From a virus: DNA of 40,973 nucleotides. Under the pieces are notes generated by a model, which worked only from the letters and a program-made list of their open reading frames with translations, did no database searches and was not told where the DNA came from. The position numbers and the translations under genes are program-made. Positions 18,085 through 33,583 of the stretch are shown here, one piece after another (positions within the stretch are counted from its first letter, which is position 1; each line of letters opens with the position of its first letter). The stretch lies in IMG/VR virus record IMGVR_UViG_3300005265_000013, positions 1-40,973 of that record. One strand, 5' to 3'.

Positions 18085-18741
18085 ATGGCACAATCTTATC
18101 GTTCAACAGAAGCAATATTAAACGCAGAATGGTTCGGAGATACCAGAACTATTGAATTGACGGGTCCTCAAACCGATTACAATATTCTTACTCCTCCCTC
18201 TGGTGAAAGAATTAAAGTTACAGGGATTTATGTTGCTACTGATGATACAACCTCCACTATTAACATTGAGTTTTCTGCTTCGGGAACAGAGCTTTTAAGA
18301 GCCTACAATGTCTCTGAGCCAGTTCACCTTTATCCCATTAGAAAAACAGGTGGAAAAGATGAAAGTATTAGAGTAACTACTGACCAAGGAGCGACCAACA
18401 AACTATTTATCGCCATAAACTATGCCTTCGTGGCAGATATGGGCTTTCAGGAGGGGACAACTACTTCTACGTCTACGTCAACTACTACTACTTCTACATC
18501 TACTACTACAACTTCTACGTCGACAACTACTACATCGACTTCAACAACAACTACTTCGACCTCAACAACTACTTCAACTTCAACAAGTAGTTCAACATCT
18601 ACGACTACAACAAGTACTTCGACAAGCAGTAGTACAAGTACAAGTTCTTCGACATCAACGAGTACTACAACAACAAGTACTTCTACATCAAGTACTACTT
18701 CAACAAGCTCAAGCACGAGCTCTACTACCACCACATTCTAA
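18085..18741 (+). CDS. Virion surface protein with 93-residue Ser/Thr tail
   Basis: A 218-residue protein. Residues 1-124 look like a beta-sandwich domain (AEWFGDTRTIELTGPQTDYNIL, SGERIKVTGIYVATDD, KLFIAINYAFVA), as in small phage surface or decoration proteins. Residues 125-217 are only Thr and Ser in patterns such as TTTTSTST. Such tracts are extended and are classic O-glycosylation substrates. The nine-enzyme sugar cassette begins 41 bp downstream. It starts with TAAAATGGC, 1 nt after the previous stop. Confidence 0.75.
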   Translation: MAQSYRSTEAILNAEWFGDTRTIELTGPQTDYNILTPPSGERIKVTGIYVATDDTTSTINIEFSASGTELLRAYNVSEPVHLYPIRKTGGKDESIRVTTDQGATNKLFIAINYAFVADMGFQEGTTTSTSTSTTTTSTSTTTTSTSTTTTSTSTTTTSTSTTTSTSTSSSTSTTTTSTSTSSSTSTSSSTSTSTTTTSTSTSSTTSTSSSTSSTTTTF

Positions 18742-18744
18742 GGC

Positions 18745-18773
18745 TTGACTTTTGACGTCATTTGTGGTATAAT
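18745..18773 (+). promoter_or_regulatory. Promoter of the sugar cassette
   Basis: TTGACT (18745-18750), 17-bp spacer, TATAAT (18768-18773) preceded by TGG. The GTG start of the first glycosyltransferase is 9 nt downstream, so the mRNA is predicted to be leaderless. The -10 to start segment (GTCATT before GTG) resembles that at 3562 (GTCAA before ATG). Confidence 0.8.
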
Positions 18774-18782
18774 GCCGTCATT

Positions 18783-20093
18783 GTGAAGAAGATTGCTATT
18801 CAAACTACTTTTACTGGATTTGATGAAGCCTACTCACTCTGTAACGTAGTCTCCGACCAAATTAAAGCCCTTGTTACTCACGGTTACGAACCAGTTGTTA
18901 TTGTGGCCGAGGGCTTTAAGCCTGTTCACTGGTTTGCCAATGGGAAAGTAACTCTAAAATATATTCCTTCTGTTCCTTGTTACAACGAAGTAAGAAAAGA
19001 TAAAACTTTTGATGAGGATGTTGAGAAATTGAAAAATGCTTTTAGGGAGGCTTTAAAGGGAGTTGACATTGTTATAACCCATGATTTGATTTATCAGAAT
19101 GCCTCTTTGAAACACAATATCGCCTGTCGGGCAATTGCTTCTGAGTTTCCAAAGTTAAGATGGCTTCATTGGATACATTCTGCTACTTCTCCCTTTACAA
19201 TAAATCAAATCAGACCAATTTTTCAAGATATATACATTTCTCTTTTAGCACAGAAATTTCCAAATAGTAATCCTGTTTTCTTCAATGATTATTCTAAAAG
19301 AAGAATTGCCAAAAACTTTGGCTACGAGATTTACGAGGTAAAAATAGTTCACCACCCTACTGACATCTGTTATCGATTAGGAATGGATGAAGTAACAGAA
19401 CGATTTGTCTTAGAAAATGATATTTTATCCGCTGATGTAATTGATGTTTATCCAATCAGACTTGATAGAGGAAAACAGGTGGAAATTGTAATTAAGACTT
19501 TAGCTTGTCTTAAAGAGAAGGGATATTCTGTTAGAGGTATTATTGTTGATTTTCATTCTAATTCCAAAAATCCAAATGACCCAAAATTTCGGTATAGAGA
19601 GGAATTAAAAAATATCGCTATTGATTGGGGACTTTCTCCGCCAGAAATTCTTTTTACCTCCCAGTATGACCCAAAGTGGGATTTAAGTGTTGGTCATAAA
19701 ACTTTGATGCAACTTTTGAATTTATCAAATCTCTTTATTATGCCTTCTGTATCTGAAAGTTACTCGCTTGTAACTCAAGAGGCTTCTTTGTTTGGAAAAG
19801 CCCTTCTTGTTCTTAATCAAGATTTTCCTCCTTTTAGGGATATTTATGGTCCTAAAGCAGTCTATCGCAAGTATTCTTCTGCGATTGATACTTTAACAGG
19901 CATGGATGGAAGAACTACTACTACTTACGACCAAGGAGAACATTTCTATCATATGGAAACAGCAAATATAATTGCCTGGCATTTAGAGAATGATTATTCT
20001 TTGGCAATGAATAGAAAATTAAGAAAAGAGAGAAACTTAAATAAAATTTTTGAGACAGAGCTTGAACCGCTTTTTTATGAGGCTAAAAGTTAA
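18783..20093 (+). CDS. Glycosyltransferase, GT-B fold (GT4-like)
   Basis: A 436-residue protein. It has an N-terminal Rossmann half (KKIAIQTTFTGFDEAYSLCNVVSDQIKALVTHGYE) and a donor-binding half with the GT4 EX7E motif in VSESYSLVTQEASLFGK. It would move an activated sugar to an acceptor using a retaining mechanism. The GTG at 18783 is used because the promoter places it 9 nt after the -10 box; the earlier ATG at 18772 overlaps the -10 box itself. It is the first gene of the sugar cassette. Confidence 0.85.
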   Translation: MKKIAIQTTFTGFDEAYSLCNVVSDQIKALVTHGYEPVVIVAEGFKPVHWFANGKVTLKYIPSVPCYNEVRKDKTFDEDVEKLKNAFREALKGVDIVITHDLIYQNASLKHNIACRAIASEFPKLRWLHWIHSATSPFTINQIRPIFQDIYISLLAQKFPNSNPVFFNDYSKRRIAKNFGYEIYEVKIVHHPTDICYRLGMDEVTERFVLENDILSADVIDVYPIRLDRGKQVEIVIKTLACLKEKGYSVRGIIVDFHSNSKNPNDPKFRYREELKNIAIDWGLSPPEILFTSQYDPKWDLSVGHKTLMQLLNLSNLFIMPSVSESYSLVTQEASLFGKALLVLNQDFPPFRDIYGPKAVYRKYSSAIDTLTGMDGRTTTTYDQGEHFYHMETANIIAWHLENDYSLAMNRKLRKERNLNKIFETELEPLFYEAKS

Positions 20094-20226
20094 AGTAGAA
20101 TTCAAAGAATTTGTCCCACCAAAGAAAAGAAGCGAAATTGAGCAGTTTATAACGTATGGATTGAATGAGGGAAAGATAGACTATTATAGAGTTTCTTTTT
20201 CTTGGAAAAAAAGAAAACATGAGTAA
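20077..20226 (+). CDS. Small basic protein inside the sugar cassette
   Basis: A 49-residue basic protein (MRLKVKVEFKEFVPPKKRSE, then YYRVSFSWKKRKHE). It overlaps the end of the first glycosyltransferase gene by 17 nt and the next start by 8 nt, as expected for a coupled gene, but has no clear ribosome binding site. No family was recognised; it may be spurious. Confidence 0.45.
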   Translation: MRLKVKVEFKEFVPPKKRSEIEQFITYGLNEGKIDYYRVSFSWKKRKHE

Positions 20227-20962
20227 ACATAATCTTGCTGTGATTGGTTGGGGAGTAGTTGGAAAGGCAACTGCCCTGGCTTTAGGGATAGATAACTATT
20301 GGAGTAGAAGTTCATCTACTCAGGAATTTGAGGAGTTGATTGCTAAAAATGATGTGATTTTTATTTGCCTTCCTACACCAACAAAGAAGAGAAAACAAGA
20401 TTTAAGTGCTATTGAAAATGTCTTGGAAAGAGCCTCTGGAATTCCCAGCAATCCTCTGTATGTTGTCCGCTCAACTGTTTTGCCAGGAGTTACGCAGTAT
20501 CTCTCCAAAAAATACAAATTAAGAATGGCACATATTCCTGAGTTTTTAACAGAAGCCACCGCTTATGAGGATGCTCTTAACCCTGATTTAATTGTGATTG
20601 GCTGTGATGATGCAAGAGATGCCCATATTTTAAGAGAAATCTATATAGACTTTCCTAAAGTTCTTATGACAGACAGCAAGACAGCAGAGATGATTAAATA
20701 TGCTGTGAATTGTTTTTATGCTACTAAAGTCATTTATGGTAACCAGATTTGGGAGCTTTGCGATAAGGAAGGAATTTGCTATGAGACTGTAAGAGATGCG
20801 ATGTATCAGATGAAGTGGATTGGTAAAAATCATCTTACAATTCCTTTTAGAGGTAGAAGGAAATTGGGAGGAAAATGTCTTCCAAAAGACCTAAGGGCAT
20901 TTGCGACGTTTTCTAAGTTACCTTTGCTTGAAAAAGTGGTAGAAATTGATAACTCGCTATGA
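20219..20962 (+). CDS. Short UDP-glucose/GDP-mannose dehydrogenase relative
   Basis: A 247-residue protein. It has NAD-binding IGWGVVG, LPTPTK, RSTVLPG, PEFLTEATAYEDALNPDLIVIG, EMIKYAVNCFYATK and catalytic GGKCLPKD (Cys220). This family oxidises a nucleotide sugar at C6 to a uronic acid with NAD. Full-length members have a further ~100-residue UDP-binding C-terminal domain, which is absent here, so substrate binding must differ or the enzyme pairs with another protein. It is translated as part of the glyco-operon (4-nt overlap with the next gene). Confidence 0.8.
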   Translation: MSKHNLAVIGWGVVGKATALALGIDNYWSRSSSTQEFEELIAKNDVIFICLPTPTKKRKQDLSAIENVLERASGIPSNPLYVVRSTVLPGVTQYLSKKYKLRMAHIPEFLTEATAYEDALNPDLIVIGCDDARDAHILREIYIDFPKVLMTDSKTAEMIKYAVNCFYATKVIYGNQIWELCDKEGICYETVRDAMYQMKWIGKNHLTIPFRGRRKLGGKCLPKDLRAFATFSKLPLLEKVVEIDNSL

Positions 20963-21693
20963 GATTCTCAATTTGTCTTTTGACACACAAAAGGTTTCCT
21001 GATGATAATAAAAATATTTATTTCCTTAGGAGGGCAATAAATTCCGTTTTAACTCAGACCTTTCAAGATTGGGAGTTGGTTCTCCTGATAGATGGAAAAG
21101 ATAAGGCAAAAGCGAAGTTCCTTGAGACAATCAAAGACAAAAGAGTTAATTGGTATGAGCACATTCATAGAGGAAGATATATTGCAAGAAATGAAGCAAT
21201 GTTGCTCTCCAATGGTGAATGGATTACTTGGATGGACGATGATGACTTTTTAATGCCAATTTATCTTGAGGCAATTGATAAGGCAATTAAAAAATATCCT
21301 AACTATAAAGTATTTCATTTTGGAGCAACGATAATTCACGACGACTATGGAATTTCAGTAAGAGAAGTAGGACATTTTGAGGAAGACAAGATTGGATTTA
21401 AACCCTTTTCTTCAGGGAGAATATCAACAGGTTCTTTTGTTTTTCATAGGTCTGTTTATGAAGACATAGGAGAAATGCCGAACAGGCAATCTTGTTGGGA
21501 TTTTGCCGAAGCGATGAAGCAGAGATATCCTGAGCTCAGGAAATTCTTTCCAGGGACAAAAGAATTAGGGAATCCTTATGGTGATGATTTTGCCTATTTC
21601 TATATGATTACGAGGAAATATAAAAGCAAGGAATTAAAAACCGCTCTTTATATAGTCTGCGGTTCAAAAGGAAGGGAGCAACAATGGAAGTAA
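20959..21693 (+). CDS. Glycosyltransferase family 2
   Basis: A 244-residue GT-A fold protein. The opening FSICLLTHKRF, the AINSVLTQTFQDWELVLLIDG segment and the WITWMDDDDFL metal site (DXD) are those of inverting GT2 enzymes, which use a divalent metal and a nucleotide sugar. It overlaps its neighbours by 4 and 10 nt. The acceptor is unknown; from context a virion Ser/Thr glycan or a cell-surface glycan. Confidence 0.88.
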   Translation: MRFSICLLTHKRFPDDNKNIYFLRRAINSVLTQTFQDWELVLLIDGKDKAKAKFLETIKDKRVNWYEHIHRGRYIARNEAMLLSNGEWITWMDDDDFLMPIYLEAIDKAIKKYPNYKVFHFGATIIHDDYGISVREVGHFEEDKIGFKPFSSGRISTGSFVFHRSVYEDIGEMPNRQSCWDFAEAMKQRYPELRKFFPGTKELGNPYGDDFAYFYMITRKYKSKELKTALYIVCGSKGREQQWK

Positions 21694-22421
21694 GCAAATA
21701 TGATATTGTGATGGTTTCTTATCAAAGGTGGGAATATACCCGCAAAACCCTTGAGTATTTAAAAGAGAGAACAAAAACTCCTTATCGTCTTATCTTGGTT
21801 GATAACTGTTCTGACCCTCAAACTCAAAGATGGCTTCTGAAATACAAGGAGATGGGATTTATTGACCATTTGATAATTCTTGAAAGAAATTATGGAATTC
21901 ATATGGCTAAAAATTATGGTCTTGCTTTTGTAAGAACTACCTTTAGATATTATATTGATACTGATAATGATATTTTAGTTCCCGACCTTGAGCCAGATTG
22001 GTTGTCAAGGCTGGTTACGTTAATGGATAATAATCCTGAATACGGGGCAATTGCCCTTCAGCCACAAATCATGGTAGGGAGGGGACCTGTTCCTGAAACT
22101 GCTCCTGAAGTTTGCCCTATTTCTCATATTGGAGCATATATGAGGATTATGAGGATAGATTTGGTTAAAAAGGTGGGGGGATGGAAGAAGATTTACAATG
22201 CTAAAAGGAATGATGAGGAAAAGACTATTTGTTCTAAAATCTACAAAGAAGGATTTAAGGTTGGAGTAGCAAGAGATTTAAGGTGCTGGCATTTGTTTGG
22301 TAAGAATTGGGGCTATCCAGAAGATTTGAAACCAGAAGACCATGGACATCGTCCTGTATGGCCTCCGCCAGAACATTACGATAAGGTTAGAGTTGACCCT
22401 AAAACTTGGCAACCATTATGA
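21684..22421 (+). CDS. Glycosyltransferase family 2
   Basis: A 245-residue GT-A protein with DIVMVSYQRWEYTRKTLEYLKERT, PYRLILVDNCSD, NYGIHMAKNYGLA and the YYIDTDNDILVPD metal-binding segment. It is similar in layout to 20959..21693 but not a close copy, so the two probably add different sugars. The start lies 10 nt inside the end of the previous gene. The C-terminus is Pro/His-rich (GHRPVWPPPEHYDK). Confidence 0.85.
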   Translation: MEVSKYDIVMVSYQRWEYTRKTLEYLKERTKTPYRLILVDNCSDPQTQRWLLKYKEMGFIDHLIILERNYGIHMAKNYGLAFVRTTFRYYIDTDNDILVPDLEPDWLSRLVTLMDNNPEYGAIALQPQIMVGRGPVPETAPEVCPISHIGAYMRIMRIDLVKKVGGWKKIYNAKRNDEEKTICSKIYKEGFKVGVARDLRCWHLFGKNWGYPEDLKPEDHGHRPVWPPPEHYDKVRVDPKTWQPL

Positions 22422-22921
22422 AAAAATTAAATTTGGGCAGCGGTAAAAATCCAGTTAAAGGTTACATAAATATAGATATTCGTCCCGAAGCAAAAGACGT
22501 TGATATGATATTGAATTGCGAAAAACTGCCTTTTGCTGAGAAGAGCATTGATGAGGTCTTTGCTAAAGACCTTTTAGAACATTTCGGTTGGCGAAAATGG
22601 AAGAAAGTTTTAAGAGAATGGGTAAGAGTTTTGAAAGATGGTGGAGTAATAAAGTTAAGATTTCCTGACTTATCGAGAATAATTGATGAGTTTAAAGACA
22701 ACAGGATGAGCTTTGAAAGGATGGTTCAGCTAATTTTTGGAGACCAAGATTATTTACAAAATTTTCACAAAACAGGGCTAACATTAGAGTTGGTAGCAAC
22801 AGAGTTAGAGCAGTTGAATTGTACCATTCTACAAGCTTGGTATGATGGTGGAAGAGATGCCAGAATTACAGCAGTTAAGGGAAATAAAAAACCATTGGTT
22901 GATTTGAAACATCCATTATGA
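22418..22921 (+). CDS. SAM-dependent methyltransferase
   Basis: A 167-residue class I methyltransferase. Motif I is LNLGSGKNPVKGYINIDI, the acidic cofactor end follows, then LPFAEKSIDEVFAKDLLEHF and LREWVRVLKDGGVIKLRFPDLSRI, as in Methyltransf_11-type proteins that modify sugars or small molecules. The start at 22418 overlaps the previous stop (ATGA). Within a sugar cassette it is likely to O-methylate a sugar or glycan end. Confidence 0.83.
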   Translation: MKKLNLGSGKNPVKGYINIDIRPEAKDVDMILNCEKLPFAEKSIDEVFAKDLLEHFGWRKWKKVLREWVRVLKDGGVIKLRFPDLSRIIDEFKDNRMSFERMVQLIFGDQDYLQNFHKTGLTLELVATELEQLNCTILQAWYDGGRDARITAVKGNKKPLVDLKHPL

Positions 22922-23757
22922 AAAGAAAACTCTTAATTTTGTTAGCGTGGGAAAATTTTAGCAGGTATTACTCTGAACAGATAGCGGAGACTATTGAAGA
23001 ATTTTATGAGACCGACATTACTGCCGACCCTTCTGTAGATTTCTCAAAATATGATGTTGTGATGTCGTTTTTTCCTCACCGTCATCCTGATTGTCAAGAA
23101 AAGTTAGTTAAACTATTTTTTGAGCCTCACGAGATGGGTTTTAAGCTCGGTAGGGTGAATGTAGCTTGCTCTACCTATTCTTATCGTTTGCTTTTAAGAA
23201 AAGACTCCAATGCTCAGTTTGTTCCTCTTGGTGTTAATACTGAGCATTTTTATCCTCAGACTTCCTCTCATACTAAGGTGAGAATTGGTTGGTGTGGAGA
23301 ATATAAAAATCCACGCAAACAATTTAATAAACTTCAAGAAATGTTGTCTACAATTCCCGACATAGAATTTTACCCTAATCGCACAGAGAATTTTGGAGGA
23401 AAAGTTAAGGGTCCCTATGAGAAAGTAAGTGATATGGTGAACTATTATAAAGAGATTGATATCTATGTTTGCTCATCAGCAAGTGAGGGATTTGGTCTGC
23501 CTCTTCTTGAAGCATCTGCCTGCGGCAGACCAATAATTACTTTTGATGTGGGGATAGCAAGGGAGTTGAAACAGGATGGCGCAGGCGTAATGATTGTTAA
23601 TGATTTTCCTGAAATGAAAAGAAAAATCATTGAGTTAGCTCACGACAAGGAAGAAATAAAGAAATTGGGAGAAAAGAGTTATAGAGCAGTTCTTCGATAT
23701 TGGCGATGGAGTTCATTGAGAAAAAGATGGCTTCACGTTTTTAACTTAATAAAATGA
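22918..23757 (+). CDS. Glycosyltransferase, GT4-like
   Basis: A 279-residue GT-B protein, shorter than most GT4 enzymes. The C-terminal half has IGWCGEYKNPRKQFNKLQEML, IDIYVCSSASEGFGLPLLEASACGRPII (EX7E-type donor site) and a closing helix. The N-terminal half is reduced. It overlaps both neighbours by 4 nt (ATGA). Confidence 0.83.
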   Translation: MKRKLLILLAWENFSRYYSEQIAETIEEFYETDITADPSVDFSKYDVVMSFFPHRHPDCQEKLVKLFFEPHEMGFKLGRVNVACSTYSYRLLLRKDSNAQFVPLGVNTEHFYPQTSSHTKVRIGWCGEYKNPRKQFNKLQEMLSTIPDIEFYPNRTENFGGKVKGPYEKVSDMVNYYKEIDIYVCSSASEGFGLPLLEASACGRPIITFDVGIARELKQDGAGVMIVNDFPEMKRKIIELAHDKEEIKKLGEKSYRAVLRYWRWSSLRKRWLHVFNLIK

Positions 23758-24689
23758 AACTTCTAATAACTGACCATTTAGGGCAACATAAAACTACAAA
23801 AGAGTTAGAGAAATGGTTTAGGAACAAAGGACACGAGGTTAAGTGGAGTATGTATTATGACCCAAAACTTATGACTTGGTGCGATATTGCCCTATTTGAG
23901 TGGTGTGAGGGAATGGTGAATTTAGCGATAAAGGATGGATGGTGTAAGAAAAAACCCGTTTTTTGCCGAGCAATGGATATTGAAATATGGGCAAGGCAAT
24001 ATAACGGAATTGATTTGGGACAATTAAAAGGACTGGCTTATACTTCAAGAGCATTATTCTCTGTTATGAATGAAGATTTACATTTTCGTGAAAAATGGCC
24101 CGACCTAAATATTATCCATATTCCTTTATCTATTGATTTGAAGGAATGGACTTTTAAAGAAAGAAAGCCTGGAAGGAGAGTGGCTATAATTGGTCATATG
24201 TGGGGGTCGAAAGGAGCGGTAATGATACCTCAGTTTGTTGACCAATTGATTAAAAAAACAAAAGACGATTCTTGGCAGTTTTATCTTCAAGGACATTGGA
24301 GGCACGATGTTTGGCGATGGTATTTCCATTATTTTAAGCATATAATAAGAGAACTTAAACTTGAGAAAAACATTTTTATAAACGAGAAAAGAGTTCCTTC
24401 TATTGATGAGTTCTTAGAGGACAAAAATTATTTAATTACCTTTTCAATGAAGGATGCCTTTTCCCTAATAGTGGCGGAGGCAATGGCTAAGGGAATTAAG
24501 GCTCTTCCTCATAATTTTATAGGAGCAAAAGATATTTGGAAAAAATATGTCTGGAGCAGTTTTGATGAATTGTTTTATAGACTTTTGGAAGAAGAATACA
24601 ATTCTAAAGAATATCGCAGTTTTGTTGAAAGAAATTACTCCAATAAAGTTATTATGCCAAAATGGGAAAAGTTTTTAGGAGTAAAATGA
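23754..24689 (+). CDS. Glycosyltransferase-like protein, GT-B
   Basis: A 311-residue protein with a GT-B layout: an N-terminal domain (LLITDHLGQHKTTKELEKWFRNKGHEV), a linker, RRVAIIGHMWGSKGAVMIPQFVDQL, and FSMKDAFSLIVAEAMAKGIKALPHNFIGAKDIW in place of the GT4 donor site. It is more diverged than its neighbour, but the context and E-rich donor segment support a glycosyltransferase. It is coupled by 4-nt overlaps on both sides. Confidence 0.75.
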   Translation: MKLLITDHLGQHKTTKELEKWFRNKGHEVKWSMYYDPKLMTWCDIALFEWCEGMVNLAIKDGWCKKKPVFCRAMDIEIWARQYNGIDLGQLKGLAYTSRALFSVMNEDLHFREKWPDLNIIHIPLSIDLKEWTFKERKPGRRVAIIGHMWGSKGAVMIPQFVDQLIKKTKDDSWQFYLQGHWRHDVWRWYFHYFKHIIRELKLEKNIFINEKRVPSIDEFLEDKNYLITFSMKDAFSLIVAEAMAKGIKALPHNFIGAKDIWKKYVWSSFDELFYRLLEEEYNSKEYRSFVERNYSNKVIMPKWEKFLGVK

Positions 24690-25651
24690 AAAAAAGAATT
24701 CTTATTACTGGTATCACGGGATTTTTGGGGGAGGAGATGGCAAGACATTTAAATCCTAAGGAATTTGATATCTTTGGTCTTGCCAGAATGTCAGTTAACA
24801 CAAGGAGCAGTATAGGGATACTGCCTCCTCATATAAAAGTCCTCTACGGCGACCTAATGAGCTCGTTGAGCGTAAAAAAAATAGTAAAAGAGGTAAAGCC
24901 TCACATTATTATTCATTATGCCGCCTTGTCGCAGGTTAATTATTCTTTCTTTCATCCAGAGGAAGTAATTGATACTAATTTCTTAGGAACTGTAAGATTG
25001 GCAGAGGCAGCAAGGGAATGCCAAAATTTTGAAAAGTTTGTTTTTGCTTCTACTATTGAGGTTTATGGAGACCAAGACAAAAGAGAGCCTTACACTGAGG
25101 AACTCAAATCAAGACCAAATTGTCCTTATGCGGTTTCCAAAGTAGCCTGCGAGAAATATCTCCAATATCTTCATCGTGCTTTTGGTTTTCCTTGCGTGAT
25201 AGTTCGTCAGTCAAACGTTTATGGGAGAAAAAAAGACCCCTATTTTATTGTTGAGAAGATTATCTCAGAAATAATCAAGAATGAAGACTTAATATATTTA
25301 GGAAGTCCTGAGCCAGTAAGAAGTTTTATTTATATTAAAGATTTACTTTCTTTAGAAGAAAAAATCATTAAAAGCGATAAAAAAGAAATCTTGGGAGAAA
25401 TCTTTAATACAGGACCCGCTAACGGAATTTCAATTCGTGAGCTCTATGAATTGATAAAGAGACTTATGGGTTGGGAAGGAGGCGTAGTCTGGCAACAGAC
25501 CGAAGTAAGACCAGGAAAAGGAGAAGTTTGGTATTTAAATGTTTCCAACGAAAAAGCAAAAAGAATGTTGAATTGGCAACCAAAATATACTTTAGAAGAA
25601 GGATTGAAAGAGACAATAAGATTTTGGAAAATTAAATATGGAGAAATATAA
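24686..25651 (+). CDS. Nucleotide-sugar epimerase/dehydratase (extended SDR)
   Basis: A 321-residue protein with NAD-binding TGITGFLG, HYAALSQV, FASTIEVYG (catalytic Ser/Thr) and YAVSK (Tyr/Lys pair), then RQSNVYG and RSFIYIKDL, as in GDP-mannose 4,6-dehydratase and UDP-sugar epimerases. The exact substrate cannot be read. Together with the dehydrogenase relative it suggests the phage makes its own sugar donor. The start at 24686 overlaps the previous stop (ATGA). Confidence 0.85.
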   Translation: MKKRILITGITGFLGEEMARHLNPKEFDIFGLARMSVNTRSSIGILPPHIKVLYGDLMSSLSVKKIVKEVKPHIIIHYAALSQVNYSFFHPEEVIDTNFLGTVRLAEAARECQNFEKFVFASTIEVYGDQDKREPYTEELKSRPNCPYAVSKVACEKYLQYLHRAFGFPCVIVRQSNVYGRKKDPYFIVEKIISEIIKNEDLIYLGSPEPVRSFIYIKDLLSLEEKIIKSDKKEILGEIFNTGPANGISIRELYELIKRLMGWEGGVVWQQTEVRPGKGEVWYLNVSNEKAKRMLNWQPKYTLEEGLKETIRFWKIKYGEI

Positions 25652-26546
25652 TACATTTGTTTTCCCTATAATAAGAACCGATTTTATAGAAAGGGCTCTT
25701 GAAACGCTTTATGAATATACAGAGCCTAATTTTTATGTATATGTTATTGACCAATCTCCAAGTGGTATTTATAATAAAATCAAAGAGAGGACACACTTGT
25801 ATATAAGACCATATCGTAATTTAGGATTCGCAAAGGCTGCCAATACAGGAATAAGATTAGCAGACACCAAGTACATTACAGTCTGCAACGATGATGTAGA
25901 GTTCATAAATAAGAAATGGTGGTCTGGTATTTTGGAGACCTTTAAAAAGTATGGAGAGAAAGTTTTGGCAGTCAATCCAATGTCACCTAAGATAGCTGCA
26001 TGGGGCTATGGATATCCAGACCACTACCACAAAGAATTTATAGAGCTTTTGCCATATAAAAGAAAATATACAGAGAAGGATTATGAGTTTTTACTTAAAG
26101 GAGATTTCTCAAATATCAAAGATTTACCAACAACTTTCCCCCGTCACCAAAGTGGAGTTATTGATGCTTTTGCTGCTTGGTGTTCTGTTTTTAAGAGAAC
26201 TTCGTTTGAGAAGATAGGATATTTTCACGAGAGATTTTATCCTGGTGGAGGAGAAGATTATGACTTAAATGCTCGTGCTTATTCCAAGGGCTATCGTTTT
26301 CTTTGTACTCCTTTATCTTGGGTTTATCATCATTGGTCTAAAAGTAAGGGACCTGGTAGAGGAGAAAATACACCAAAAGAAGTTAGAGACCTAATTGATC
26401 CTAAAAGATGTTGGAATAAACTTGGAGAATTATGGCCAAAAGAATTAAACGAAGGACATGAGTTTGATGTCTGGGGATTTTATACTCATAAAGGAGTTAG
26501 AAAGCCTTTAAAAAGAGCAAAAGTAGAAGATTTTGTTCCTCTTTAA
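25638..26546 (+). CDS. Glycosyltransferase family 2 (rhamnosyltransferase-like)
   Basis: A 302-residue GT-A enzyme with VYVIDQSPSG, YRNLGFAKAANTGIRLA, the VCNDDVEFI metal site and GGGEDYDLNARAYSKGYRF, as in GT2 proteins that build bacterial surface polysaccharides. It is the last gene of the sugar cassette. A new promoter follows after only 7 bp. Confidence 0.88.
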   Translation: MEKYNTFVFPIIRTDFIERALETLYEYTEPNFYVYVIDQSPSGIYNKIKERTHLYIRPYRNLGFAKAANTGIRLADTKYITVCNDDVEFINKKWWSGILETFKKYGEKVLAVNPMSPKIAAWGYGYPDHYHKEFIELLPYKRKYTEKDYEFLLKGDFSNIKDLPTTFPRHQSGVIDAFAAWCSVFKRTSFEKIGYFHERFYPGGGEDYDLNARAYSKGYRFLCTPLSWVYHHWSKSKGPGRGENTPKEVRDLIDPKRCWNKLGELWPKELNEGHEFDVWGFYTHKGVRKPLKRAKVEDFVPL

Positions 26547-26553
26547 TTTCCTA

Positions 26554-26582
26554 TTGACAATAGAAAATAATTGTTTTAAGAT
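26554..26582 (+). promoter_or_regulatory. Promoter of tail gene 26592
   Basis: TTGACA (26554-26559), 17-bp spacer, TAAGAT (26577-26582). The ATG lies 9 nt downstream, matching the leaderless pattern. It uncouples the tail genes from the sugar cassette. Confidence 0.7.
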
Positions 26583-26591
26583 TATCTTACT

Positions 26592-27287
26592 ATGGCTTTT
26601 GATGATCACAAAAACTTTGCCTATTCTACAGTAGCAACAGCACCTTCTCCTGCTGATTCAGGAACTTCTTTAGATGTTCAATCTGGCGATGGTTCTAAAT
26701 TTCCTACACCTCCTTTTAATGCTACAGTTTGGCCTGCTAATCAGCAACCAACAACTTCAAATGCTGAAATTGTAAGAGTTACTGCTATTTCTACCGACAC
26801 CTTTACTATTACTCGTGCTCAGGAAGGCTCTAGTGCTCGTTCAATTCAAGTAGGAGACCAAATAGCAGCAACAATTACAGCTAAAAGTTTAACTGATATT
26901 GAGAATAGTATGGTTAAAGCTTATGTATCATCAGAAAACAATGCTCCTTTTGCTACTGATACAGTCGGTTCTTGGGTAGATATTACTGATGTTAGCATCA
27001 ATATTACATTAAGTAGCACACGAGACGTCTATTGTCTCTTTGATTGTCATGTTTATCACACTACTGCAGGCAAGGATATTCACTTGCGAATTTTAAGAAA
27101 TTCTACTGTTATTAGCCATGAAAGAAGAGTTCATTGTGATTCTGCGGTAGCACAATATCCTGTGGTCGTCGCTGCATTAGATAAAAATGTATCTGCGGGG
27201 AGTTATACCTATAAAGTTCAGGCTTACACAGATACAGCAAAGTTGCGAGTTAACAGTGTTAAGGGCTTGAAAGTTTTAGTAATATAA
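26592..27287 (+). CDS. Tail protein
   Basis: A 231-residue protein. The N-terminal part (FAYSTVATAPSPADSGTSLDVQSGDGSKFPTPPFNATVWP, EIVRVTAI, TITRAQEGSSARSIQVGDQIAATITAKSL) is a small beta domain often found at the base of phage tail spikes, fibres or baseplate parts. The second part is a beta-sandwich (VGSWVDITDVSINITL, AGSYTYKVQAY) of the kind that ends receptor-binding or collar proteins. No enzymatic site is visible. Leaderless start. Confidence 0.75.
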   Translation: MAFDDHKNFAYSTVATAPSPADSGTSLDVQSGDGSKFPTPPFNATVWPANQQPTTSNAEIVRVTAISTDTFTITRAQEGSSARSIQVGDQIAATITAKSLTDIENSMVKAYVSSENNAPFATDTVGSWVDITDVSINITLSSTRDVYCLFDCHVYHTTAGKDIHLRILRNSTVISHERRVHCDSAVAQYPVVVAALDKNVSAGSYTYKVQAYTDTAKLRVNSVKGLKVLVI

Positions 27288-27297
27288 CTTTGTCCTC

Positions 27298-27326
27298 TTT
27301 AATTTTTTCCTCTTTTTGGTTATACT
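27298..27326 (+). promoter_or_regulatory. Probable promoter of the giant Ser/Thr gene
   Basis: TATACT (27321-27326) lies 9 nt before the ATG at 27336, as in the other leaderless units. The -35 region at 17 bp is only TTTAAT, so it may be weak or depend on an activator. Confidence 0.5.
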
Positions 27327-27335
27327 GTAGTCACC

Positions 27336-30116
27336 ATGGCTGCAGTTGATTATTTTGCTCACCCTTATCCAGCTCAATATCATGCAATAGTCTATACAAC
27401 AACAAGTACTACAACAAGTACAACTACTTCTACTTCTTCAACAACAAGTACATCTACATCAACATCAACAACCACAACTTCTACAAGTACAACAACATCT
27501 TCTTCAACTAGTACAACGACTACAAGTACATCAACTTCATCTACTACTTCTACTAGTACAACAATAACGTCAACTAGTACTTCTAGCTCAACGTCTTCAA
27601 GTACTTCTACAACAACAACTTCTACAAGTAGTAGTACTAGTACTTCTTCTTCGACAACTACAACAAGCTCCTCAACTTCGACTACAACTTCTAGTAGCAC
27701 AAGTACTACAACCACTTCGACATCCTCTACAACTTCTACTTCGACTAGTACTACTACTACATCATCAAGTACATCGAGTTCTACATCGTCTAGTACATCT
27801 ACGAGCTCGTCTACATCTAGCTCAACAAGTTCTACAACTACTAGTAGCTCTACTACGACGTCTTCGTCTACGAGCACAACAACTACTTCTACCAGCTCGA
27901 CAACCTCTACAAGTACTTCTTCAAGTACTACAACTACTAGTACATCAAGTACTACCTCAACTTCTACATCAACGACGACAACTTCTACATCAACTAGTAG
28001 TTCTACTAGTACCAGCAGTTCTACGTCTACCTCTTCCTCAACGTCTACGACCACTACGAGTACTTCTTCGTCAACTTCAACATCGAGTAGCACTTCTACG
28101 TCTTCATCAACAAGCTCTACAACTACTTCTTCTTCAACTTCTAGTTCAACTAGTACATCAAGTAGTACTTCGTCAACGACTTCTACATCTTCTACGACTA
28201 CAAGTACTACTACTACATCAACAAGCAGTTCAACAAGTAGCTCAACTTCTACTACTACAACTGTTCCTTATACAGGAAGTACGGCTGATGGAGAGTTGGG
28301 TCGTCTTAATGAGAGTACGTGGAGTGCTGCAAGAGATGCAACTACCTCTGATGTAGTTTGGGATATTTATGCAAATGTAACGGTTTCAGCTGATTATTCA
28401 ACAGAGTATAACTATGAATGCAAAAGGGTATTTCTATATTTTGATACCTCAGATATCCCCGATGATGCAATTGTAGATGCAGCTTACTTGAACTTAAAAA
28501 TTGGGCCTGTTAGTGGAAATGGGGAAATAGAAGTTTTTGCAGGAACTCAGGGAGATACTCTAGATACATCTGACTTTACAGCTTTTGGAACGACATTGTT
28601 TGGAAGTGCTACATGTTCAGACAACGAGGGCTGGAAAAGAATTACTCTTAATGATGATGGCGTAAATCATATAAATGTCTACGGGACGACTAAATTCTGT
28701 ATTAGACATAAGTATGATGTAGATAATACTGAACCTACTACCACAAATAATGTAGCTTTCAGCAGTGCCAATGATACAGGAAATGAGCCTTATCTTGAGA
28801 TTCAGTATCACTTAACGGGAACTACGACATCAACGTCAAGCTCCACTACTACTACAAGTACGTCTACGACCACTTCAACTTCTACTTCGTCTTCAACAAC
28901 AACTACTAGTACTTCTACATCAAGTTCGACTTCATCAACAACATCTTCCTCTACTTCTAGCTCTACTTCATCGTCTACTTCGTCAACTACTACTAGTTCT
29001 TCGACTTCATCAAGCACTTCGTCAACTACGACAAGTAGTTCTACCAGTAGTTCTACAAGTTCAACCACCACCAGTTCTTCTACCTCATCATCTACAAGTT
29101 CAACAACAACTTCAAGTTCAACCTCAAGTTCGACCAGTACTAGTTCAACTACTACTTCTAGTAGTACGTCATCGACTACAAGCACTTCTACAACAACTAC
29201 TTCTACTTCTACATCAAGCTCTACTTCGTCTAGTACGAGTTCTACTACTACAAGTTCATCTACTTCTAGTTCAACCTCATCAACTACGACATCAACCTCG
29301 ACTTCCAGTTCTACTTCTACATCAAGTACTACTACCAGTAGTTCAACTAGTAGCTCTACGTCATCAACGACAACAAGTAGCTCTACTAGTTCTTCAACCT
29401 CATCTTCGACAAGTTCTACAACAACATCGAGCTCAACAAGTAGCACGACTACTTCTTCTTCTACTTCTTCCTCAACTTCTTCAACAACTACTAGTAGTTC
29501 TACCAGCTCAAGCACGAGCAGTTCAACTTCATCTACGACGACTTCTAGTAGTACTTCCTCCAGTACTTCTTCAACTACTACATCAAGCTCTACTAGCTCA
29601 ACTACGACTAGTAGCTCGACCAGTTCGTCTACAAGTTCAACTACTACCAGTTCTTCTACTTCGTCAACGACAACTAGTTCGTCAACTTCTTCATCGACTA
29701 GTTCAACTACAACTTCTTCATCTACTAGTTCCAGTACTTCAAGCAGTACGTCATCAACAACGACTTCTACGTCTACTAGTAGTTCTACTTCCTCAACTAC
29801 AACAAGTAGCTCTACCTCTACTAGTTCTTCTACTTCGTCTACGACGACGAGTACCTCTACTACAAGCTCAACCTCATCTTCAACAAGTAGTAGTACTTCT
29901 TCAAGTACAAGCAGTTCTACTTCAACAAGTACAACTACTACTTCTACTTCGTCTTCTACAACTAGTAGTACTTCTTCATCTACTACGTCGAGTACTTCTT
30001 CAAGCACAACAACAACATCAACAAGTTCTTCAACTTCGACTACGACCCTATATGCTGTTGCAGAAGCAGAGGAGTTATCTCAAATTGTTCCTGAGGTAGA
30101 AAGTATTACTTATTAA
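27336..30116 (+). CDS. Giant mucin-like virion protein with two Ser/Thr stalks
   Basis: A 926-residue protein. Layout: a 20-residue head (MAAVDYFAHPYPAQYHAIVY), Ser/Thr stalk to residue about 308, a globular beta domain about 309-496 (KRVFLYFDTSDIPDDAIVDAAYLNLKI, the DNRLRE/jelly-roll-like pattern found in surface adhesins), a second stalk to about 903, and a 23-residue acidic end. About three quarters is only Ser and Thr. Unglycosylated it would be disordered; glycosylated it would be a stiff brush. The head and end are shared with 30168..30410. A fibre or coat protein is likely; function is inferred. Confidence 0.8.
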   Translation: MAAVDYFAHPYPAQYHAIVYTTTSTTTSTTTSTSSTTSTSTSTSTTTTSTSTTTSSSTSTTTTSTSTSSTTSTSTTITSTSTSSSTSSSTSTTTTSTSSSTSTSSSTTTTSSSTSTTTSSSTSTTTTSTSSTTSTSTSTTTTSSSTSSSTSSSTSTSSSTSSSTSSTTTSSSTTTSSSTSTTTTSTSSTTSTSTSSSTTTTSTSSTTSTSTSTTTTSTSTSSSTSTSSSTSTSSSTSTTTTSTSSSTSTSSSTSTSSSTSSTTTSSSTSSSTSTSSSTSSTTSTSSTTTSTTTTSTSSSTSSSTSTTTTVPYTGSTADGELGRLNESTWSAARDATTSDVVWDIYANVTVSADYSTEYNYECKRVFLYFDTSDIPDDAIVDAAYLNLKIGPVSGNGEIEVFAGTQGDTLDTSDFTAFGTTLFGSATCSDNEGWKRITLNDDGVNHINVYGTTKFCIRHKYDVDNTEPTTTNNVAFSSANDTGNEPYLEIQYHLTGTTTSTSSSTTTTSTSTTTSTSTSSSTTTTSTSTSSSTSSTTSSSTSSSTSSSTSSTTTSSSTSSSTSSTTTSSSTSSSTSSTTTSSSTSSSTSSTTTSSSTSSSTSTSSTTTSSSTSSTTSTSTTTTSTSTSSSTSSSTSSTTTSSSTSSSTSSTTTSTSTSSSTSTSSTTTSSSTSSSTSSTTTSSSTSSSTSSSTSSTTTSSSTSSTTTSSSTSSSTSSTTTSSSTSSSTSSSTSSTTTSSSTSSSTSSTTTSSSTSSTTTSSSTSSSTSSTTTSSSTSSTTTSSSTSSSTSSTTTSSSTSSSTSSSTSSTTTSTSTSSSTSSTTTSSSTSTSSSTSSTTTSTSTTSSTSSSTSSSTSSSTSSSTSTSTTTTSTSSSTTSSTSSSTTSSTSSSTTTTSTSSSTSTTTLYAVAEAEELSQIVPEVESITY
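27396..28260 (+). repeat. Ser/Thr tract, first stalk
   Basis: About 288 codons of almost only Thr (ACN) and Ser (TCN, AGY). The protein pattern is repetitive (TSTSTTTTS), but synonymous codons are mixed, so long exact DNA repeats are few. Confidence 0.85.
28823..30044 (+). repeat. Ser/Thr tract, second stalk
   Basis: About 407 codons of Thr and Ser with a clear higher-order unit such as SSTSSTTTSSST, again written with mixed codons. It is the longest low-complexity tract in the window. Confidence 0.85.
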
Positions 30117-30129
30117 GCGGTGTTGACTA

Positions 30130-30158
30130 TTAACTTTTTTTTCTAAATAGGTTATACT
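30130..30158 (+). promoter_or_regulatory. Promoter of 30168..30410
   Basis: TTAACT (30130-30135), 17-bp spacer, TATACT (30153-30158), with the ATG 9 nt downstream. A better TTGACT at 30123 would give a 24-bp spacer and is less likely. Confidence 0.5.
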
Positions 30159-30167
30159 TGTAATACT

Positions 30168-30410
30168 ATGTCAGCTAGTGATTATTTTGCTAGACCTTAT
30201 CCTGCTCAATATCATGGGCAAGTTTACACAACTACAAGTACTACAACTACGAGTACTAGTACTACTAGTACTTCTACTACGACGACTTCTACATCAACAA
30301 CCACTACCAGCACAAGCACTACTGCTACTACCCTTTACTTTAAGCCCGAAATAGATGATGTTCTTGCTGTTCAGGGTAAAGTGGGAGAGATTGTTCCTCA
30401 TACCCAGTGA
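30168..30410 (+). CDS. Short mucin-like paralogue of the giant Ser/Thr protein
   Basis: An 80-residue protein. Its head (MSASDYFARPYPAQYHGQVY) closely matches that of 27336..30116, and its end (LYFKPEIDDVLAVQGKVGEIVPHTQ) matches the other's acidic end in form. Only about 36 Ser/Thr residues lie between and the globular domain is missing. It could be a truncated copy or a working short version that shares the same attachment point on the particle. Confidence 0.65.
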   Translation: MSASDYFARPYPAQYHGQVYTTTSTTTTSTSTTSTSTTTTSTSTTTTSTSTTATTLYFKPEIDDVLAVQGKVGEIVPHTQ

Positions 30411-30439
30411 TTGACAAATTAAAAGATTTATATTATTTT
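30411..30439 (+). promoter_or_regulatory. Promoter of 30449..31663
   Basis: TTGACA (30411-30416) directly after the preceding stop codon, 17-bp spacer, TATTTT (30434-30439), with the ATG 9 nt downstream. The mRNA is predicted to be leaderless. Confidence 0.6.
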
Positions 30440-30448
30440 TGAATTAAG

Positions 30449-31663
30449 ATGATACTTCGTTCAAAAAATCCAGACTTATCCAAAAATCCCAAGACTTGGT
30501 TAGGAGCTAGTTATTCCTCTGGAACTACATTAACAGTTATTTCTTCTGTTGGTTTTTCAAATGATGATATTATTGTAATAGGAGAACCAGGAGAAGAAAA
30601 AACAGAAGCCGCCACCATCAACGGAAATCCATCTATAAATCAGATTACCATTGATTCTGCTCTAAAGTTTTCTCATCCTAAAGATACTCCCGTTTATCTT
30701 TCAAGAGTAAATAAGGTCTCTTGGGAGTATAAGACTTCAAAAACTGGTGATGCGAATGTAATTGTAGGAATGCCCATAAATATCCAATGGGATAAGAACT
30801 TTACAGAGTATTCTTGGACTTTAGGGCAGGCTTCTTATTATTATCGCTTTAGGTTTTACAATTCTCAGACAGGAGATTATACAAGTTATTCTGATTGGAT
30901 TTTGGGAAGCGGCTTCACCTTAAATTCTGGAGGATATATGCTCCAGAATGTTAGGAGAATTACAAAAGATTTAGACGGCAAAACAGCATCAGATGACCAA
31001 ATCTTCAGATGGTTCACAGAAGCTCAAGAGATTATACAAGCTCAACCTATTAGATGGTGGTTTCTTTTGAAGGAGGCTTCTTTTACTACAGTTGCTTCTC
31101 AATTCAAGTATGGAATAACCTCCAGCATTGGCAGCGATTTTTTGAGAATGGAATCGCTCCGTTATCGCTATAATCCTTCCTCAAGCAGCGATGTAACCTA
31201 TCGTCTTAAATATTATCCTCTTTCAGAGTTTGAGGCAGAGATTCAAGATGAGAACAGAACCGATGATGATAAGCTGACAATTTGGACTTTATATCCTCCA
31301 GATTCTTCAGATTCTCTGGGATACATTGGAGTTGGTGCTCCTCGTCCTGCTTCCTCAGGAAAATATCTTTACGCAAGATACTGGAAGAAAATGTCGGCGA
31401 TTGATTCAAGAGGAGATACTACCGATGTTCCTCTGCCATTCATTTTGGAAGACTTTGCTATTGACCAAATTGAAAGATTACGGGGCAATAGAAGTTATGA
31501 TGAAATGATGAGAAGGCTTTACGCCAACATTACTCTTCTAAAGCAACTAAACAGAAGACAAATGGGGCAACCAATGGACTTAAGATGGAGGGGAAGAAGG
31601 GCAATGACAAGGCTTTTTGGCAAAAGAGCGGTAACTTTAGCTGACAAAGAAAATTATTGGTAA
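30449..31663 (+). CDS. Tail connector / adaptor-like protein
   Basis: A 404-residue protein. The first 150 residues are beta-rich (a small bind-and-turn domain SSGTTLTVISSVGFSNDDIIVIG, then a sandwich). From about 165 on, ITKDLDGKTASDDQIFRWFTEAQEIIQAQP followed by SSIGSDFLRMESLRYRY and LPFILEDFAIDQIERLRGN resembles P22 gp4-type head-to-tail adaptors of short-tailed phages. The N-terminal fusion to a surface-type domain is unusual. Function is inferred from this similarity and position. Confidence 0.6.
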   Translation: MILRSKNPDLSKNPKTWLGASYSSGTTLTVISSVGFSNDDIIVIGEPGEEKTEAATINGNPSINQITIDSALKFSHPKDTPVYLSRVNKVSWEYKTSKTGDANVIVGMPINIQWDKNFTEYSWTLGQASYYYRFRFYNSQTGDYTSYSDWILGSGFTLNSGGYMLQNVRRITKDLDGKTASDDQIFRWFTEAQEIIQAQPIRWWFLLKEASFTTVASQFKYGITSSIGSDFLRMESLRYRYNPSSSSDVTYRLKYYPLSEFEAEIQDENRTDDDKLTIWTLYPPDSSDSLGYIGVGAPRPASSGKYLYARYWKKMSAIDSRGDTTDVPLPFILEDFAIDQIERLRGNRSYDEMMRRLYANITLLKQLNRRQMGQPMDLRWRGRRAMTRLFGKRAVTLADKENYW

Positions 31664-31673
31664 AAAAAGAAAA

Positions 31674-31728
31674 GCTAGAGAGTTTAAACACGCCTAAAGC
31701 GAGTTGTTTTTCACCAATTCTCTCTAGC
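31674..31728 (-). terminator. Inverted repeat with T-rich side on the minus strand
   Basis: GCTAGAGAG (31674-31682) and CTCTCTAGC (31720-31728), a perfect 9-bp stem with a 37-nt loop that has its own CGC/GCG mini-stem. On the minus strand the stem is followed by TTTTCTTTTTTT, as for an intrinsic terminator; on the plus strand no T-run follows. All nearby genes are on the plus strand. Confidence 0.4.
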
Positions 31729-31769
31729 CTGACCATATTATACTATATTTTGTCAATTGTGCGACGTTT

Positions 31770-32084
31770 ATGGCAGAAAAAAGATTACAGATTTTTGACT
31801 TCTCTGGAGGAGTTCAGACTAAAACAACTAAATTTTTAAGGAGAGTTAGTGAAGTTGAACATGCAGTAAATGTAGACTTAGAAACTATTGGGGGCATTTC
31901 AAAAAGGAAAGGATATACTCAAAAAGGACCTACCTTTACTTCAACAACAACTTCAACAACAACTACTACTTCAACTTCATCATCAACAACAACTACAAGC
32001 ACATCTACAACAACAACTTCTACCTCAACAACAACGACAAGCACGTCAACGACTACAACATCAACTAGCACATCAACACCATAA
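31770..32084 (+). CDS. N-terminal half of a split propeller-type protein, ending in a Ser/Thr tail
   Basis: A 104-residue protein. Residues 1-54 (LQIFDFSGGVQTKTTKFLRR, NVDLETIGGISKRKGYTQKG) are the typical beginning of large P22 gp10-like/propeller proteins of phage tails. Residues 55-104 are only Thr/Ser plus a final Pro. The continuation of the usual protein is found 3 nt later in 32087..33583. The gene therefore seems divided at a loop where a Ser/Thr tail and stop codon were added. No ribosome binding site is evident. Confidence 0.7.
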   Translation: MAEKRLQIFDFSGGVQTKTTKFLRRVSEVEHAVNVDLETIGGISKRKGYTQKGPTFTSTTTSTTTTTSTSSSTTTTSTSTTTTSTSTTTTSTSTTTTSTSTSTP

Positions 32085-32086
32085 TT

Positions 32087-33583
32087 ATGAAAGACATCTT
32101 GGGTCTTGGACATTTTAATAAAACAGATGGAACCTCAAAGCTCTTAGCAGTTTTCGGAGGTGATGTCTTTATTTACAATGAGGGAACTAACTTATGGGAA
32201 CCGCAGACTCAGGGATTAAGCACTACTGCTAAAGTAGAATGGGAAAATTTTTGTGACAAATGGTGGATGGTAAATTATGATGATGCCACCCGCTATTATG
32301 ATGGTTCTTCTTGGACACAACCTCCAGATGTACCTCAGGCACGGTATATAAAGAGATTTAATAACCGTTTGTATTTGGGGAACTGTAAATACCCAACCAT
32401 TTCTGGTTTTTCAGGAACAACAGAGTGGCCATCACGAATATTTTATTCAGACTTACCTGAGAACAAAGAGATAACATGGGGACTTGAGGCGGGAACAGAT
32501 TTGGTTCAAACAGCCAATTCGAGCGTTGTTACCTCAGCAAGTGCTTTATTTGAGACAAGAAACATAGAAACAGGCGACCCCTTTTTTATTACTTCTGGAG
32601 CGAATCAGGGCGTTTATACTGTTGACTCGGTTGATTCAGAAACACAAATTACTTTAGTCGAGACGTTGGACAATTCTGCTACAGGTTCTCATTATTGGGT
32701 TGGAGATAATTGGGCTGATATAAATACAGATGACGGAGATGTGATAATGGGACTGGGAGAGAACTCAAACCGTCTTTTAATCTTTAAGCAAGACTCTCTT
32801 TATAGATACTCAAGTTTCGTTTGGACAAAAGTTCCTGGTGGTGCGGGAACTGTATCTCATCGTTCAATTGCTAATTGGAGAGGAAATACTTATTATTTCC
32901 ATCGTGATGGTATTTACAAGTATGATGGGGTTAGCTCCACTCTGATTTCAAACGCAATTCAAGATTACATTGATGGAATTTCTGGGAGTTTCTTTTCTAA
33001 CATCTGTGGGACTACTAAAAGAAATCATTATTACGCAATTGTAGGGGACATAACAAATTCCGAAAAGGATATCTCTATCTCAAACGCTATGATTGATTAT
33101 GATATATCCCAAAAACATTTCTATTTCCATTCCTTAGCTGATGTTCCTCGTGTGTTCACAGGATTTTTAGAGAGTGGAATAAAAAATTTATATTTTGGAA
33201 CTAATGAAGAAAAGGTATTTAAATGGCTGGATGGCAATAGCGATGCAGGAGAGCCTATACACGTAGAGCTTGAGACAAGAACTTATTATCCAGTGGGACC
33301 AGAATATATAAACCAATTTCATCGCATCTTAATCTTTACTCAGAATGGAATGGGACTTAAAATACAATATAAAATAGTTGGAAATCCAGACAGAGACCAA
33401 GACGTTTGGGAGTCCATTGGCAACATCCACGGAGATTATTTTGAAAAAAGATTAGAGCCGAGTAAATCACGGGGGAGAGGAATTAAATTTAGAATCTCTG
33501 AATCATCAACACTTAAGCCCTTTCTTTTAGAAGGAATTACTGTGTTTTATACTCCTGTAGAAAAAGTAGAGGAGGAGAAATGA
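32087..33583 (+). CDS. Propeller-type tail hub/stabilisation protein (C-terminal part)
   Basis: A 498-residue protein built of repeated four-stranded blades: LLAVFGGDVFIYNEGTNLWEP, WWMVNYDDATRYYDGSSW, RLYLGNCKY, RLLIFKQDSLYRYS, TYYFHRDGIYKYDG, NLYFGTNEEKVFKWLDG. This is the beta-propeller pattern of gp10-like tail stabilisation proteins. It starts 2 nt after the stop of 31770..32084, which carries the expected N-terminus, so the two products probably associate. Confidence 0.7.
   Translation: MKDILGLGHFNKTDGTSKLLAVFGGDVFIYNEGTNLWEPQTQGLSTTAKVEWENFCDKWWMVNYDDATRYYDGSSWTQPPDVPQARYIKRFNNRLYLGNCKYPTISGFSGTTEWPSRIFYSDLPENKEITWGLEAGTDLVQTANSSVVTSASALFETRNIETGDPFFITSGANQGVYTVDSVDSETQITLVETLDNSATGSHYWVGDNWADINTDDGDVIMGLGENSNRLLIFKQDSLYRYSSFVWTKVPGGAGTVSHRSIANWRGNTYYFHRDGIYKYDGVSSTLISNAIQDYIDGISGSFFSNICGTTKRNHYYAIVGDITNSEKDISISNAMIDYDISQKHFYFHSLADVPRVFTGFLESGIKNLYFGTNEEKVFKWLDGNSDAGEPIHVELETRTYYPVGPEYINQFHRILIFTQNGMGLKIQYKIVGNPDRDQDVWESIGNIHGDYFEKRLEPSKSRGRGIKFRISESSTLKPFLLEGITVFYTPVEKVEEEK

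Follow-up and report, generated by a model that had tools for sequence, protein, structure and literature searches.

Genes, tracts and enzymes in the window

Why are proteins with long tracts of pure serine and threonine encoded next to a block of sugar-handling enzymes in a viral record? The locus in question lies in the IMG/VR virus record IMGVR_UViG_3300005265_000013, which was analysed in its entirety (40,973 bases, possibly a genome fragment) and is referred to here as the window. Four genes (ST1 to ST4) carry the Ser/Thr tracts, and nine enzyme genes, six of them for glycosyltransferases (GTs), form a cassette between ST1 and the others. Comparison of sequences strongly supports a functional link between the Ser/Thr proteins and the cassette: the cassette gene GT4a and the tracts accompany each other in both directions of search, and the order of Ser and Thr is conserved residue by residue. 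We consider it likely, with a probability of roughly 0.7, that the phage adds glycans to its own virion, placing them with its own cassette on patterned mucin-like Ser/Thr tails. The genes concerned are as follows.

18085..18741, + strand: ST1, head-region protein 3' of the capsid gene, with an N-terminal domain of about 125 residues and a 93-residue Ser/Thr tail; no Pfam or PHROG match
18783..20093, + strand: GT4a, GT4-type glycosyltransferase, likely GTG start; marker gene and proposed initiating enzyme (PF00534 below cut-off; GT-B model)
20219..20962, + strand: UDP-glucose/GDP-mannose dehydrogenase-like protein without the C-terminal domain, GGKCLPKD kept (family match, motif)
20959..21693, + strand: GT2a, glycosyltransferase, DDD motif (family match, motif)
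21684..22421, + strand: GT2b, glycosyltransferase, DTD motif (family match, motif)
22418..22921, + strand: small S-adenosylmethionine (SAM) methyltransferase, Methyltransf_11 (family match)
22918..23757, + strand: GT4b, glycosyltransferase, E(x7)E motif (family match, motif)
23754..24689, + strand: GT4c, weak GT4 match, kept in relatives (match below cut-off)
24662..25651, + strand: NAD-dependent nucleotide-sugar epimerase/4,6-dehydratase (family match)
25638..26546, + strand: GT2c, glycosyltransferase (family match)
27336..30116, + strand: ST2, Ser/Thr tracts of 289 and 409 residues flanking a domain with a CBM96 match below cut-off
30168..30410, + strand: ST3, short relative of ST2 (N-terminal ~20 residues similar) with a 32-residue tract
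31770..32084, + strand: ST4, N-terminal piece of a tail protein with a terminal 47-residue tract

The four Ser/Thr genes with about 870 such residues that the initial annotation had pointed out are indeed present: their five pure tracts (93, 289 + 409, 32 and 47 residues) sum to 869-870, with one Ile interrupting. The longest run, 409 residues, compares with a maximum of 8 in 50 first-order Markov simulations of the window with the same dinucleotide make-up. ACN, TCN and AGY codons are all present throughout the tracts (AGY at 154 of 870 positions). Within the 409-residue tract the amino-acid pattern has a period of 13 residues (identity 0.72), and synonymous codon identity is flat, being 0.28 at lag 13 and 0.17-0.31 at all other lags. 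Tandem Repeats Finder reports imperfect arrays within the tracts, yet the mixed codon make-up and the flat codon identity at lag 13 exclude a simple DNA repeat. Alternating T-S words predominate, and Ser runs do not exceed 3 and Thr runs 5, whereas shuffled tracts reach 12 and 10, respectively. Since the amino-acid period is kept without a codon period and the runs are constrained, it is the protein rather than the DNA that is conserved.

Family searches confirmed the composition and place of the nine-enzyme block (18783-26546) that had been read from the letters alone: six GTs, a UDP-sugar dehydrogenase, an epimerase/dehydratase and a methyltransferase. Three of the GTs match GT2 (PF00535) above the Pfam cut-off and one matches GT4 above it; two GT4-like matches (18783, 23754) fall below. 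In NCBIfam, GT4a belongs to no family, and GT4b scores at most 40 bits against cut-offs of 575-800 (TIGR02918, NF047880, NF047881). The GT4a model (predicted local distance difference test, pLDDT, 89.5) has a GT-B fold, its fold search is topped by GT-B/GT4 chains, and its E(x7)E motif is ESYSLVTQE. No membrane-spanning segment was found in the nine cassette proteins (the top 19-residue hydropathy mean, 1.74, lies in the Rossmann region of the dehydrogenase), and the family search found no membrane flippase or Gtr-type membrane GT component among the nine genes. The dehydrogenase is only 247 amino acids long, with NAD-binding and central domains and the catalytic Cys motif GGxCxPKD; those of relatives are similar (~252-261 amino acids).

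Co-occurrence of GT4a and Ser/Thr tracts

A GT4a profile made from 13 proteins was searched against IMG/VR and yielded at least 157 stretches, 80 of which were kept for counts. These counts treat related sequences as separate, as the 80 GT4a loci are kin rather than independent and the records are fragments; only mixed Ser/Thr tracts were counted, and the 59 control loci were picked by an Asp/Glu repeat. A mixed tract is present at 60 of the 80 GT4a loci and at none of the 59 controls (Fisher 3e-22), typically 0.5-2 kb upstream of GT4a. When GT4a proteins are joined by single linkage at 60% identity, 21 of the 28 clusters have a tract (2e-14). All GT4a loci that also have a capsid homologue carry a tract except locus L204, which has two tracts of 12 and 13 residues, and scanning whole records for the 20 GT4a loci below the first tract threshold recovered tracts in six (two of them a single pattern match only). 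At eight loci (L224, L227, L228, L230, L235, L242, L244, L245) GT4a and a tract occur without a homologue of the window's capsid protein in the fetched stretch, so that the pair probably extends beyond a single capsid lineage.

In the reverse test a Ser/Thr codon pattern, blind to GTs, was run over IMG/VR. TCN-repeat matches taken as Ser tracts proved to be mostly reverse-strand shadows of Asp/Glu (GAN) repeats, and the first sample was contaminated by them. Among 29 loci with true mixed tracts, nine have at least 5 AGY codons, a threshold that was chosen post hoc from codon counts, before GT4a was searched in those contigs, and not fixed in advance. GT4a is found in eight of these nine contigs (E 2e-34 to 2e-199) but in none of the 20 other tract contigs and none of the 21 controls (0/41 together; Fisher 2e-6), and the same eight contigs carry GT2 genes. 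The initial annotation had proposed looking for co-occurrence in related phages, and had named, as a finding that would refute it, a cassette that is common in related phages lacking Ser/Thr proteins; the two are linked both ways, and what was seen in relatives does not refute this linkage.

Among 84,980 genomes GT4a was detected in four metagenome-assembled contigs only, and neither the window's GT4a nor its GT2c gave a tblastn match at E 1e-3 in 50,697 INPHARED phage records. One GT4a homologue (L098/G053, 20580-21857) has a single in-frame TAG, which possibly reflects recoding or a broken gene.

Conservation of the order of Ser and Thr

In many relatives, GT4a is directly preceded by tracts whose lengths are exactly 39 and 41 (or 44) residues. 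Eleven 41-residue tracts have a mean pairwise Ser-versus-Thr identity of 0.886, against 0.53 when the order is shuffled and 0.35-0.72 when tracts are slid by 1-6 positions. Their third-base agreement is 0.33, compared with 0.337 expected from composition, which means saturation at synonymous sites. The 39- and 44-residue sets behave similarly, with Ser/Thr identities of 0.84 and 0.81 and third-base agreements of 0.33 and 0.37 (expected 0.36 and 0.39). Ser and Thr codons differ by one base (TCN-ACN, AGY-ACY), and with synonymous sites saturated the order would therefore be lost without selection. Judged from these alignments, selection separates Ser from Thr at each site, and DNA slippage is not the cause. 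This residue-level conservation is the most surprising feature of the system and was absent from the initial annotation. An apparently featureless tract thus holds position-specific information, which makes the reading of Ser versus Thr by an O-glycosyltransferase directly testable.

Ser-rich tracts, of the 44-residue type, occur in L186, L188, L195, L210, L211 and L007 and Thr-rich ones in others; tract composition may follow the GT4a clade.

Relatives found by the capsid protein

The window holds a tailed-phage gene block with small terminase, large terminase, portal, scaffold-like protein, major capsid protein and tail genes. The description of the ST genes as structural-region genes is based on synteny with the major capsid, portal and terminase genes. 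Three further genes are listed here.

16683..17591, + strand: major capsid protein, the context anchor (homology)
26592..27287, + strand: protein without family match, between the cassette and ST2 (family search)
32087..33583, + strand: rest of the tail protein of ST4; in some relatives tracts are inserted at other sites

With the capsid protein as query, 26 relatives of 57-73% identity were found, and whole records or stretches were mapped. Their head part commonly runs terminase, portal, scaffold and capsid, then one to three small proteins with a Ser/Thr tail, each consisting of an N-terminal part of ~50-60 residues, with the motif GDxYYDTxxxxLYVYDGSxW, followed by the tail. GT4a, the dehydrogenase, GT2a and GT2b come next, followed by a middle part that varies, by GT4c and GT2c, by large Ser/Thr proteins, one of which has as many as 745 tract residues, and by tail genes. 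A Ser/Thr tract is present in every mapped record that bears GT4a (in L012 it is short; G005, G006 and L023 are near-duplicates among these records). The two mapped records without GT4a, G007 (L026) and L025, have another set of GTs, and their equivalent proteins (at 12131-12823 and 9352-9954, respectively) bear Ser-Pro tails (SPSASPS...). Judging from these two genomes, which are few, tail type and enzyme set change together. An IMG/VR search with the N-terminal domain of ST1 found no relatives.

G002, G003 and G008 encode the tail protein of the 32087 family without interruption. In the window its first ~57 residues are followed by a 47-residue tract, and the gene is cut in two by a stop codon; what had been annotated as a separate gene at 31770 does carry a real Ser/Thr tract, but it represents the N-terminal part of a tail protein that most relatives encode in a single gene. 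The later region of the protein has a 14-residue tract in G005 and a 130-residue tract in G004; tracts have thus entered this structural protein at two or more sites.

Two further tract proteins were noted by eye. The protein at 29995-30930 of G002 (reverse-oriented) has an N-terminal half resembling a SET domain (NHSCNPN motif) fused to ~128 Ser/Thr residues, and the large Ser/Thr-tract protein at 42657-45221 of G004 has an apparent inserted methyltransferase domain.

Proposed glycosylation of the virion and alternative explanations

The anatomy, the enzyme families, the two-way co-occurrence and the residue-level selection are direct observations. If the phage glycosylates its own particles, ST1 (by the capsid genes) and ST2-ST4 (by the tail genes) would bear exposed mucin-like Ser/Thr tails, onto which the soluble, cytoplasmic cassette enzymes would make and transfer sugars stepwise, before or during assembly. 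Because membrane segments are lacking in the cassette, transfer would most simply proceed in the cytoplasm, stepwise and directly onto protein, as in serine-rich repeat adhesins, and soluble enzymes encoded among virion genes fit the glycosylation of the phage's own proteins. GT4a is proposed as the initiator and would most likely attach the first sugar to Ser/Thr: no other member is as constant, it adjoins a tract gene and it tracks the tracts both ways, while the cassette middle differs among relatives. GT2a, GT2b, GT4b, GT4c and GT2c would then lengthen the chain; uncommon sugars would be supplied or capped by the dehydrogenase, epimerase/dehydratase and methyltransferase. The Ser/Thr order would be conserved as part of the acceptor signal, or as what sets glycan density and shape. 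A stronger version, in which this order is a written code read by the dedicated phage GT4 and cassette, so that glycans are placed on the virion in a defined pattern that is specific to residues and has a genetically specified spacing, is put forward tentatively, as possible rather than probable.

The tie between tracts and cassette on which the initial annotation built its idea of self-glycosylation was thus found in both directions; the location in the virion, the attachment of glycans, the initiator role and acceptor of GT4a, the identity of the sugars and any benefit (a brush for adhesion, hiding or protease resistance) are what we infer. If this is right, many uncultured phages, given the at least 157 IMG/VR stretches with GT4a, would build glycosylated mucin-like coats with their own enzymes, a tract together with GT4a would be a sequence signature for finding them, and the enzymes would offer a soluble toolkit for synthetic mucins.

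Several observations weigh against virion glycosylation. GT4a records of 31, 37 and 50 kb, all possibly fragments, are free of tracts, as are short fragments, and L064 (43.7 kb) has codon-diverse tracts without a PF00534, PF00535 or GT4a match. The GT4a fold is a generic GT-B and does not reveal the acceptor, since MshA, BshA, PimA, TarM and SdgB align with similar scores and large root-mean-square deviation. In an AlphaFold monomer model, a 41-residue tract shows no secondary structure, at low confidence (pLDDT ~48-66), and conservation of Ser and Thr is also compatible with packing in an unglycosylated fibre. Such a fibre, perhaps trimeric and built from patterned Ser/Thr strands while the cassette serves another role, would account for the exact lengths (39, 41, 44), for the 81-89% Ser-versus-Thr identity at saturated synonymous sites and for the dominance of alternating T-S words. 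We nevertheless regard it as unlikely, as it leaves the two-way link with GT4a unexplained; the unstructured tract in the model speaks weakly against it as well, being that of a monomer only.

The cassette might instead alter the host surface, for seroconversion or superinfection exclusion, with the Ser/Thr tails as unrelated flexible linkers. GT2 and GT4 families are typical of surface polysaccharides, and serotype-converting phage GTs are well known (cited in PMC12619734), but the nine genes include no membrane enzyme or flippase and lie inside the virion gene block, and neither the linkage nor the residue-level selection is explained, which makes this account rather improbable. Phage GTs that add diverse glycans to DNA are likewise known (cited in PMC12619734), and the cassette GTs might glycosylate hypermodified phage DNA; this reading does not predict the link to tracts, and the scan of window proteins (early genes in part) revealed no enzyme of base modification, so that we give it very little credence. 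As for hypermutable DNA repeats that expanded neutrally and lie near GT genes by chance, the imperfect arrays mentioned above are what one would expect, but the order of amino acids is preserved across randomised synonymous codons, which already contradicts this account, and microsatellite-like tracts (few AGY codons) show no link with GT4a (0/20); its probability is close to nil. Virion glycosylation is the reading that we retain.

Comparison with known glycosylation systems

In the serine-rich repeat adhesin systems of Gram-positive bacteria (GtfA/GtfB; SdgA/SdgB), O-glycosylation of low-complexity Ser-rich tracts is begun by cytoplasmic GT4 enzymes, and other GTs then lengthen the chains step by step. 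The window system is similar in that low-complexity Ser/Thr tracts are encoded beside GTs (0.5-2 kb from GT4a). It differs in that GT4a and GT4b lie outside the GtfA, SdgA and SdgB families by NCBIfam, no secretion system accompanies it and the acceptors are located in the phage structural block. It differs also from Gtr-type lysogenic conversion cassettes, whose membrane flippase and GT components were not found in the window cassette.

Among phages, the mycobacteriophages Che8, Corndog and Myrna glycosylate the C-termini of capsid and tail-tube proteins with their own GTs (Freeman 2023, as reported in PMC12363180 and PMC12619734). There, as here, the GTs are phage-encoded, six of them within the virion block of the window, where the glycans themselves are presumed. 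In contrast, the window has dedicated Ser/Thr proteins with tracts of up to 409 residues and a nine-gene cassette, and GT4a has no homologue in the INPHARED records. Mimivirus and chlorovirus also encode glycan machinery, with gene sets that differ from clade to clade (PMC9614988); the virus-borne genes and this variation are points of likeness, but those are eukaryotic viruses with no shared acceptor shown, whereas the acceptor proposed here belongs to a tailed phage and consists of a patterned Ser/Thr tail. The combination of tracts and cassette, including a mucin-like patterned acceptor, is not described in the literature searched (mostly non-subscription papers). The earlier remark that no such described phage system was known thus holds, within that literature, for a mucin-like acceptor with a whole cassette but not for phage self-glycosylation, known from the mycobacteriophages; this suggests that the novelty lies in the coupling of a full cassette with dedicated acceptor proteins that carry a Ser/Thr pattern.

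Expression of the cassette and minor observations

The genes at 20219-26546 overlap head to tail by 4-28 bases and are therefore read as one operon. The G+C content of the cassette is 0.356, against 0.426 for head genes and 0.406 for tail genes. In the stretch 18745-18783, a strong sigma-70-like promoter (TTGACT-17-TATAAT, extended -10) ends ~10 bases 5' of the likely GTG start of GT4a, and TTGACA-type boxes are similarly placed before GT4a in many relatives (L172, L181, L183, L191, L200, L201, L239). TATAAT occurs within 60 bases of GT4a in 18 of 80 cases, versus 37 of 994 for other genes. A promoter this close to the GT4a start suggests that the cassette is transcribed leaderless. In the tail block, the genes at 26592, 27336, 30168 and 30449 have TTGAC/TATACT promoter-like boxes immediately 5' of the start codon and no clear Shine-Dalgarno sequence; the capsid gene differs.

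The large terminase of the window (8715-11861, 1048 amino acids) contains two inteins, with Intein_splicing, Hint and LAGLIDADG matches; the terminases of relatives are mostly ~490-510 amino acids long.

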